A stretch of DNA of 39,978 bases from Planctomycetota bacterium (GTDB taxonomy: Bacteria > Planctomycetota > Phycisphaerae > WQYP01): NCBI GenBank assembly GCA_021847065.1, contig JAJZVR010000003.1, positions 1 through 39,978 on the forward strand. The letters run 5' to 3'. The notes beneath the pieces are model-generated. The model was not told the DNA's origin and made no database searches. It worked only from the letters and a program-made list of their open reading frames with translations. Position numbers and translations under genes: made by a program. Shown here one piece after another: positions 37,086 to 39,978 of this stretch (within the stretch, counting starts at the first letter, position 1; the number at the start of each line of letters is the position of its first letter).

Positions 37086-37628
37086 TTATCCTGGCAATTT
37101 ACAGAAGCCCTGCGATGGAATATCCAGCGCTGAATTGAATTTGGAAGACAGGTTTTGAAACGCAATCAGGCCTGTGAGTTCCACAATCGTGTCCGCACTC
37201 CATTGCTTTTTTAGGCGATCGCGTAAGGCATCATCAACCGTATTTAGCGTCATGGCCTCGGCATACTCCAATGCCATAAGCTCTTCCGGTGTGAAGAGTC
37301 GGCTGTTTCGCCAATCCTGTAACGCATCAATTTTGTCCATTCCCACGCCGCGTTTGGCCAGTGTCGCCGAGTTGATATCCACACAAAACGCACAATGGTT
37401 AATCTGCGATACGCGAACGGTTACCAGGGAACGCAGCGCGGGCGGCAGCGGCGATTTACGCCGGTCCAATGCTCCATACAGCAGGGCAACGGTCGTGAAA
37501 ACCCACGGTGATCGCCCCCAAAGCAAACCCGGGTCCAGCACGCGCCCATACTTGCGTTTCTGCTTCCAGAAAAACAGCCGAATAAACCACGGATATTCCG
37601 AAATCGCCTTGGCGTTTACCGTTTGCAT
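37086..37628 (-). CDS. Carboxymuconolactone decarboxylase/AhpD-like protein
   Basis: LVTVRVSQINHCAFCVDINSATLAKRGV and LMALEYAEAMTLN; CxxC-like active site degenerate (CAFC present). Confidence 0.85.
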   Translation of the reverse strand: MQTVNAKAISEYPWFIRLFFWKQKRKYGRVLDPGLLWGRSPWVFTTVALLYGALDRRKSPLPPALRSLVTVRVSQINHCAFCVDINSATLAKRGVGMDKIDALQDWRNSRLFTPEELMALEYAEAMTLNTVDDALRDRLKKQWSADTIVELTGLIAFQNLSSKFNSALDIPSQGFCKLPG

Positions 37629-37653: not shown

Positions 37654-39246
37654 TTACGCATCCAGTGGCGACGCTTGGCCGACGGTTCGCTGGTTCATCG
37701 TGCGGATGCGGTTGATGGCCGCCAAGTAGGCTTTAGCGGAGGCTTCCAGAATATCGGTACTGAACCCTCGCCCGCGCACTTTGCGATCACTGTGTGTGAG
37801 TTCCACAGAGACCTCGCCTTGCGCTTCGCGCCCGCCGGTGATGCTGCGCACCTGAAATGAATCCAGACGCGCGCTAATCTTGGTCAATCGCTGGATGGTG
37901 GCAAACATGGCATCCACGGGGCCATCCCCCGTGGCGGCGTCGGTGATTTCCGCGCCGCTGCTATCCACCAACGTGACTGTAGCGGTCGCCACGCCATAGG
38001 TACCAGCCATTACCTGTAAACTTTTGAGCTGGAATAATTCGCGTTCGGTTTTCAATTGTTCATCAACCAGTGCTTCCAAGTCTTCATCGTAAATTTCTTT
38101 TTTCTTGTCGCAAAGCACCTTAAAGGCCGCAAACGCCCGATCCAATGCCGCTTCATCCAAGCGGTGGCCCAATTCTTCCAATCGCTGCCGAAACGCGTGG
38201 CGGCCACTGTGTTTCCCCAATACCAGTTTGTTCTGCACCCAGCCGACATCGGCTGGCGCCATAATCTCATACGTGCTGCGTTCTTTCAGGATGCCATCCT
38301 GATGAATTCCAGCTTCGTGCGCAAAAGCATTCTCGCCCACAATTGCTTTATTGCGCTGCACATGCAGCCCGGTCAAGCTGCTGACCAACCGTGAGCAGGG
38401 TACCAATCGCCGCGTGTTAATGCGCGTCGTGAACGGATATTGATCAGGGCGCGTGCGCATGGCCATAACGACTTCTTCCAACGCCGCATTACCGGCCCGT
38501 TCCCCAATGCCGTTTATGGTGCATTCAATTTGCCGCGCTCCGCCGGCCACCGCCGAGAGTGAATTCGCCACCGCCAATCCTAAATCATTGTGGCAGTGTG
38601 AACTGAAAATAACATTTTTCGCACCTGGTACATGGGCGATGAGATATTCAAACATCGCCCGATATTCACCGGGAGTTGCGTTGCCCACGGTATCCGGGCA
38701 ATTGATGGTCGTTGCGCCGGCTTCAATGGCGGCGTGAACCACTTCGGCGAGATAGTCCAATTCCGTGCGACTGGCATCTTCCGGGGAAAATTCCACATCG
38801 GAAACGTATTCTCGGGCCAACTTCACGTTCTCGATGGTCAGGCGGATAATTTCCTCTTTAGCCTTCTTGAGTTTGAATTCACGGTGAATTTTGCTGGTCG
38901 CAAGGAAAATATGAATCCTGCCCCGGGCCGCCTTGCGCACAGCTTCGCCGGCGCGGCGTACGTCGCGCTCGGTACACCGCGCGAGTCCCGCAACTGTGGC
39001 ATTCGTGATTTCTGAAGCTACAGCGCTTACGGCATCGAAATCTCCGGGACTGGTAATCGGGAAACCCGCCTCAATGATATCGACGCCCAATTGCTCCAGC
39101 GCATGGGCGATTTCCAGCTTCTCCGGCAAGTTTAATGATGCTCCGGGCGACTGTTCGCCATCGCGCAAGGTTGTGTCAAATATCAGCACCTGCGGTCTGG
39201 AATCGGTGCTGCTGGTTTCAGATGGATGAATACTGCCGGTGTCCAT
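37654..39246 (-). CDS. leuA: 2-isopropylmalate synthase
   Basis: IFDTTLRDGEQSPGASLNLPEKLEIAHALEQLGVDIIEAGFP, SSHCHNDLGLAVANSLSAVAGGARQIECTINGIGERAGNAALEEV, GKHSGRHAF, LeuA regulatory-domain C-terminus. Confidence 0.97.
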   Translation of the reverse strand: MDTGSIHPSETSSTDSRPQVLIFDTTLRDGEQSPGASLNLPEKLEIAHALEQLGVDIIEAGFPITSPGDFDAVSAVASEITNATVAGLARCTERDVRRAGEAVRKAARGRIHIFLATSKIHREFKLKKAKEEIIRLTIENVKLAREYVSDVEFSPEDASRTELDYLAEVVHAAIEAGATTINCPDTVGNATPGEYRAMFEYLIAHVPGAKNVIFSSHCHNDLGLAVANSLSAVAGGARQIECTINGIGERAGNAALEEVVMAMRTRPDQYPFTTRINTRRLVPCSRLVSSLTGLHVQRNKAIVGENAFAHEAGIHQDGILKERSTYEIMAPADVGWVQNKLVLGKHSGRHAFRQRLEELGHRLDEAALDRAFAAFKVLCDKKKEIYDEDLEALVDEQLKTERELFQLKSLQVMAGTYGVATATVTLVDSSGAEITDAATGDGPVDAMFATIQRLTKISARLDSFQVRSITGGREAQGEVSVELTHSDRKVRGRGFSTDILEASAKAYLAAINRIRTMNQRTVGQASPLDA

Positions 39247-39284: not shown

Positions 39285-39318
39285 AAAAAAACCCCGCGAG
39301 GGTCACTCGCAGGGTTTT
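39285..39318 (-). terminator. Intrinsic terminator in the leuA leader (attenuator terminator)
   Basis: Minus strand AAAACCCTGCGAG-TGACC-CTCGCGGGGTTTTTTT: 13-bp stem with one mismatch, then a T7 tract, ending about 40 nt before leuA. Confidence 0.9.
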
Positions 39319-39356
39319 CAAAATTCTTTTATAACAAAACAACCCTAAGAGCGACC
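39301..39356 (-). promoter_or_regulatory. Candidate antiterminator: 39341-39356 pairs with 39301-39316
   Basis: Minus strand GGTCGCTCTTAGGGTT pairs with AACCCTGCGAGTGACC (13/16 Watson-Crick plus one G-U), sequestering the terminator 5' arm. Confidence 0.75.
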
Positions 39357-39410
39357 AGTATTTCCCTCACTTAGTGCCAGTGCCAGCAGGTTGTTCAAAT
39401 TCAAAATCAT
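39345..39410 (-). CDS. Leucine-rich leader peptide for leuA attenuation (21 aa)
   Basis: ATG ATT TTG AAT TTG AAC AAC CTG CTG GCA CTG GCA CTA AGT GAG GGA AAT ACT GGT CGC TCT TAG = MILNLNNLLALALSEGNTGRS*; 6 Leu within the first 13 codons; lies between promoter and terminator. Confidence 0.85.
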   Translation of the reverse strand: MILNLNNLLALALSEGNTGRS

Positions 39411-39445
39411 CAGAAAAATCTTTCAAACTTTCCAATACATGTACT

Positions 39446-39474
39446 TTTATAGCCCGGGCCGGAATCAAAGTCAA
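39446..39474 (-). promoter_or_regulatory. Sigma70-type promoter for the leuA leader
   Basis: Minus strand TTGACT (39469-39474), 17-nt spacer, TATAAA (39446-39451), at the hemB 3' end. Confidence 0.85.
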
Positions 39475-39477
39475 CTC

Positions 39478-39975
39478 TCACTGTCGCAACCATTCAACAA
39501 TTTCCGACGCATAATAGGTAATAATAAACGCGGCTCCGGCCCGCCGAAACGCATGCATCATTTCCAGAACACATTGTTTTTCATCTATCCAACCCGCGTG
39601 CGCGGCCGCCTTAAACATGGCGTATTCCCCGCTTACCTGATATACCGCACATGGCACATCAACGGCCTGTGAGACCGCGGAAAGAATATCCAGATACGCC
39701 ATCCCCGGTTTCACCATGACCATATCTGCGCCTTCACGGACATCCAGCAGGGCTTCTCGCACCGCTTCGCGTGAATCCCGGCGAAAATCCATCTGGTACC
39801 CGCGACGATCGCCAAATTGGGGCGGAGATTCAGCCGCCTCGCGAAACGGCCCGTAAAAACCACTGGCATATTTTACGGCGTAACTGAGTATTGAAGTATC
39901 CTGATGGCCTGCGGAATCAAGCGCTGCGCGAATAGCCGCCACCGCATGATCCATCATGCCGGATGGTGCCACCAT
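39478..39975 (-). CDS. hemB: Porphobilinogen synthase, C-terminal part (truncated by window edge)
   Basis: [12 protein letters not shown]...[79 protein letters not shown]. Confidence 0.96.
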
Positions 39976-39978
39976 ATC

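Follow-up and report, generated by a model that had tools for sequence, protein, structure and literature searches.

A conserved candidate leader-peptide attenuator upstream of leuA in Planctomycetota

The leuL attenuator of the enterobacterial leuABCD operon (Rfam Leu_leader) combines a leader peptide with Leu codons, a competing antiterminator and a T-tailed terminator. To our knowledge, leader-peptide attenuation has not been described in Planctomycetota. In Staphylococcus aureus, a Leu-rich attenuator peptide in which Ile and Leu codons are mixed governs ilvD and with it the entire ilv-leu operon, and the proposed antiterminator sequesters the poly-U tail (PMC5794164). A survey of 2010 stated that the mechanism was known from Proteobacteria and Actinobacteria only, before its own case from Firmicutes (PMC2965389). 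The preliminary description of the locus studied here had named the same two phyla and left out the Firmicutes (PMC5794164; PMC2965389).

The window, i.e. the whole stretch of 39,978 nt that was analysed, carries a putative attenuator between hemB and leuA on its minus strand (Table 1). Promoter, 21-codon Leu-rich ORF, region 2 and T7-tailed terminator were all found where the preliminary description had placed them. The hemB stop has its end at 39478 (minus strand), and the six Leu codons of the leader are codons 3, 5, 8, 9, 11 and 13. Its ATG lies 35 nt from the promoter, with GAAAG 9 nt 5' of it. The terminator stem AAAACCCTGCGAG / CTCGCGGGGTTTT spans 39318-39288, ~40 nt ahead of the leuA start. 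The 130-nt leader folds better than 200 of 200 shuffles (z -3.4). LeuA scores 706 bits with TIGR00973 (cut-off 598.7) and 778 bits with NF002086 (NCBIfam), and leuA is most likely the gene regulated by the leader. The gene 25 nt 3' of leuA (37086-37628, minus strand) resembles AhpD-like and YciW-related (seleno)proteins, the YciW-related score being below the cut-off.

Table 1. Features of the hemB-leuA region in the window; regulatory elements as predicted
Feature	Position	Strand	Basis or detail
hemB (porphobilinogen synthase), 3' part, upstream neighbour	39478..39978	-	NF006762, E 8e-80 on fragment
Sigma-70-type promoter TTGACT-17-TATAAA	39446..39474	-	TTGACT 39474-39469, TATAAA 39451-39446
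Leader ORF, 21 codons, MILNLNNLLALALSEGNTGRS	39345..39410	-	ATG 39410, TAG 39345
Candidate region 1, AACAACCT, partner AGGGTTGTT	39388..39395	-	Minimum-energy fold
Region 2, antiterminator 5' arm, GTCGCTCTTAGGGTT, holds leader stop TAG	about 39341..39355	-	2:3 pairing, stop geometry
Region 3, AAAACCCTGCGAG, antiterminator 3' arm and terminator 5' arm	39306..39318	-	Covariation 2:3 and 3:4
Region 4, CTCGCGGGGTTTT, terminator 3' arm	39288..39300	-	Fold, 3:4 covariation
T7 tail, intrinsic terminator	39285..39291	-	Sequence
leuA, 2-isopropylmalate synthase, ATG 39246	37654..39246	-	TIGR00973, NF002086

A LeuA search in 61 relatives and 249 genomes of the class provided upstream DNA for 113 leuA genes. 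The promoter, at the same 35 nt from the leader start, the 21-codon ORF, region 2 and the terminator recur in each of the seven congeners. The full architecture is present in all 24 loci of the window's family that have upstream sequence and in 66 of the 113 class loci, spread over nine families. Since every relative of the family has the same layout, the leader layout is not due to chance. Among the 75 class loci with a terminator, 62 have a Leu-rich ORF (ATG start, end 8-75 nt 5' of the terminator, 5 or more Leu among 12 codons), compared to 1.3 in dinucleotide shuffles and none in the reverse complement. For other amino acids the same criterion yielded two loci with Ala, one with Ser and none with any of the rest, including Ile and Val. 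Because Ile, Val and Phe do not replace Leu in the leader ORFs, hydrophobicity is not the selected trait. The leader peptides are dissimilar between genera (MKFGLSNTHPYLSLTLLNLGLAGLWPGRW, MTQNTISLLLLLTRVISASS, MIRRRHSLGLLLPGLLLR), and the Leu codons alone recur. CTA accounts for 12.5% of the leader Leu codons versus 5% in six of the window's genes, which may hint at the use of rare codons. A covariance model of the family had 22 genomic matches with E < 1e-8, every one of them upstream of leuA. In three loci a tRNA-Leu gene (CAA) sits close upstream of the leader (L012:3433-3516, L015:3435-3518 and L017:930-1013), and another (TAA; L204:516-602) is found near leuA.

The same terminator detector, applied to ilvB (27 loci), trpE (21) and hisG (22) of the same genomes, returned few terminators and no conserved leader, and attenuators ahead of these genes were rejected. 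Upstream of cimA (citramalate synthase; L286-L290), a terminator ACACCCTGCC...GCAGGGTGT is conserved within the genus at a distance of ~106 nt; the leuA leader model matched this region weakly in one genome, and no conserved leader ORF was seen there.

The pairing of regions 2, 3 and 4 was assessed in a MAFFT alignment of 66 loci, which had been picked for terminator and Leu ORF and aligned without use of pairing. Standard pairs fill 84.6% of the cells of the 2:3 antiterminator, with 72 double-change cells versus 26.6 after shuffling, and 95.5% of the cells of the 3:4 terminator (78 versus 24.6). Shifting the arms by 1-3 columns leaves no more than 46% (2:3) and 51% (3:4) paired. As both stems covary, regions 2, 3 and 4 change together between families, for example from GCTC-TTAGGG / CCCTGCGAG in the window's family to ATCGTAGGG / CCCTGCGAT in f6, GGATCGCGGG / CCCCGCGATCC in f10 and CGGATAGGG / CCCTGTCCG in f18. 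Taken singly, the 2:3 duplexes of some loci, such as L013, L019 and L023, are no better than shuffles. In 71 of 72 loci, region 2 is found no more than 12 nt from the stop codon of the leader, in agreement with the claim that it covers the last codons of the ORF, straddling the stop. The alignment of related genomes, which the preliminary description had named as one way to check its proposal, revealed conserved Leu codons together with conserved, covarying 2:3 and 3:4 stems. The Leu codons, these competing stems and the link to leuA are kept not only in the window's family, but also in several other families of the class and in part of another class of the phylum.

We conclude that the element is very probably a ribosome-mediated transcription attenuator which tunes leuA according to how much charged tRNA-Leu is available, and the attribution of leuA control to a leader peptide is well supported by the conserved Leu codons, the covarying stems and the link to leuA. 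We infer that the leader is translated, that transcription terminates in the cell and that leucine elicits a response. RNA polymerase would start at the promoter past hemB, and a ribosome would translate the Leu-rich leader. When Leu-tRNA is scarce, the ribosome is predicted to stall on Leu codons 3-13 and to leave region 2 free, which would pair with the emerging region 3, block the 3:4 terminator and permit transcription of leuA. When Leu-tRNA is plentiful, the ribosome should arrive at the stop inside region 2 and cover this region, so that region 3 would pair with region 4 and transcription would end at the T run. Modelled geometry and constrained folding both agree with the proposal that stalling frees region 2 and that a ribosome at the stop codon masks it. 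With an assumed footprint reaching 12 nt downstream, all 66 loci offer at least 3 Leu codons where a stalled ribosome would leave region 2 free, and in all 66 a ribosome at the stop would mask at least 70% of region 2. Constrained folding of the nascent RNA, in which the assumed ribosome footprint was blocked, gave a median probability of region 3 being paired upstream of 0.81 with the ribosome stalled at a middle Leu codon and of 0.41 with the ribosome at the stop; the predicted difference exceeds 0.3 in 40 of the 66 loci and has the opposite direction in none.

The specific form of the protector helix 1:2 is the part of the preliminary description that needs correction. Two of the seven congeners (CATAG in L002, CCTAG in L007) disrupt the proposed core CTAAG/CTTAG, which is either wrong or weak. 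The minimum-energy fold instead pairs AACAACC with GGGTTGTT, and this pairing can form in all seven congeners with at most one mismatch. Across the class, the loci's own 1:2 pairs reach on average -16.6 kcal/mol versus -13.7 kcal/mol for permuted ones (0 of 2000), part of which may be explained by shared base composition, with a median rank of 0.23 and a median z of ~0 in family f1. These values give weak to moderate indication that some 1:2 pairing exists class-wide. When no ribosome is present, the median probability of upstream pairing of region 3 is 0.73, and 2:3 is favoured in many loci. The 1:2 helix is therefore a weak protector in most loci, and control without translation is uncertain.

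Promoters (score of at least 8.5 of 12, within 110 nt) were called in 47 of the 66 leader loci, whereas shuffled sequences gave 3.7. Nearly half of the promoter-bearing leaders have a -10 element that ends 5-12 nt 5' of the leader ATG, so that these ORFs probably begin at or near the RNA 5' end. In L010, L012, L016, L022, L126, L134 and others, the ATG lies ~7 nt past the -10 hexamer, and by this spacing their leader peptides are probably leaderless.

The terminator sits 3' of hemB and the motif GCATAAT right past it resembles a -10 element, as would be expected if an ordinary hemB terminator were followed by a separate leuA promoter and the short ORF were a coincidence. We consider this very unlikely, since the terminator is kept where the upstream sequence differs greatly, each congener has a consensus promoter placed after hemB and before the ORF, and neither the frequency of Leu-rich ORFs nor the covariation of 2:3 with the terminator would be explained. 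Peptides as rich in Leu as these are hydrophobic and trans-acting leader peptides such as peTrpL exist (PMC7298713), so the ORF might encode a functional small hydrophobic protein, with the terminator being unrelated or serving the ORF. Against this speak the lack of peptide conservation between genera, where only the Leu content is kept without substitution by Ile, Val or Phe, and the tie between the ORF end and region 2; this explanation has hardly any probability left.

A T-box or another RNA that senses tRNA-Leu or leucine directly, with an incidental ORF, would likewise control an amino-acid gene via a terminator, and a tRNA-Leu-responsive T-box does control ilv-leu in Bacillus subtilis (PMC5794164). 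However, no Rfam family, the T-box included, reached its gathering score in the window or in the leaders of 20 related loci, and the T-box riboswitch (RF00230) was also missing from the list obtained with a permissive E-value. This list held weak, unrelated leaders and sRNAs, e.g. His_leader with 19.7 bits versus a gathering score of 49 and Thr_leader with 19.1 versus 55. T-box and other Rfam families were thus rejected as the identity of the element. Moreover, the leader is only ~150 nt long, and its conserved trait is in-frame Leu codons and no fixed aptamer, which makes direct sensing extremely improbable.

The assignment of the window to a planctomycetal lineage agrees with the LeuA proteins of phylum-mates of the window's genome, which share 68-72% identity with LeuA from a named Schlesneria record; the class is presumably Phycisphaerae. 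The same attenuator design occurs in another planctomycete class, where, for example, the leader MNSSILLLPLLLSLPPQRGS has GGTCTTAGG at its stop, a segment that would pair with the terminator part CCTGAGACT. Candidate leaders are present in the named records of Schlesneria (L031), a Planctomycetaceae bacterium (L036) and a Planctomycetota bacterium (L042). The detector gave no convincing leader in the other named records, mostly Proteobacteria, nor in a Limnoglobus record (L032). A candidate from Verrucomicrobia (L087, MIRSGLLRRLLLLLLLEG) has a weak 2:3 duplex and is not claimed. Val, Leu and Ala abound in the leuA leader ORF of one planctomycete (L102; ..VVVQLPVLVLVSL..), which is followed by a strong terminator; this leader may sense more than leucine.

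A second type of leuA leader was observed in L170, L171, L174, L178, L180-L182, L184, L189, L195 and others, belonging to families f13, f16, f20 and f22. Its Leu-rich ORF ends with LLLLRR or LLLLRL, and a TGCGCC-NNTA-GGCGCA palindrome holds the stop in its loop; neither a T-tailed terminator nor an Rfam match was found for this type. In L185 and L188 (family f8) a Leu-rich ORF ending with LALRG or LALLG has a different small hairpin at its stop. We tentatively propose, rating it at slightly less than an even chance, that an early ancestor of Planctomycetota already had a leucine attenuator, that this attenuator persists upstream of leuA in two or more classes and that a branch of the window's class exchanged it for the undescribed leader type with its stop in the TGCGCC/GGCGCA loop. 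The existence of the attenuator would imply ribosomes close behind RNA polymerase in these planctomycetes.

With this attenuator the mechanism extends to a further phylum, and the RNA family it represents is missing from Rfam. Attenuation by a leader peptide requires that transcription and translation are coupled. The main interest of the element lies in this dependence, because coupling has been questioned for some planctomycetes. For Gemmata, Gottshall et al. (2014, cited in PMC6212462) reported that transcription and translation are physically separate, and there is debate about the cell plan of Planctomycetota (PMC6554331; PMC5394234). An attenuator that is conserved and covaries provides genetic evidence of coupling for one gene in many planctomycetes. 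In the open-access literature, leader-peptide attenuation in Planctomycetota was not found, in line with the earlier suggestion that its presence in this lineage is perhaps undescribed; Lopatovskaya et al. (2010), which lay outside this search, might mention Planctomycetes.

Judged by its sequence, the element works like classical ribosome-mediated attenuation, whose defining sequence features it shares, the protector hairpin being less certain. Like enterobacterial leuL / leuABCD, it has a leader with Leu codons, competing stems and a T-tailed terminator directly 5' of leuA, but no sequence similarity was found, given that no Rfam leader family matched. Unlike leuL, many of the planctomycete relatives have a probably leaderless leader, with the ATG 5-12 nt past the -10 element. 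Leader peptides were also predicted 5' of amino-acid genes in Actinobacteria (PMC1262725), a different phylum. With the ilv-leu leader of S. aureus it has in common the Leu codons, the downstream terminator and the absence of a T-box, whereas the antiterminator proposed for S. aureus takes the poly-U tail and the planctomycete one is predicted to compete for the 5' arm of the terminator (PMC5794164).
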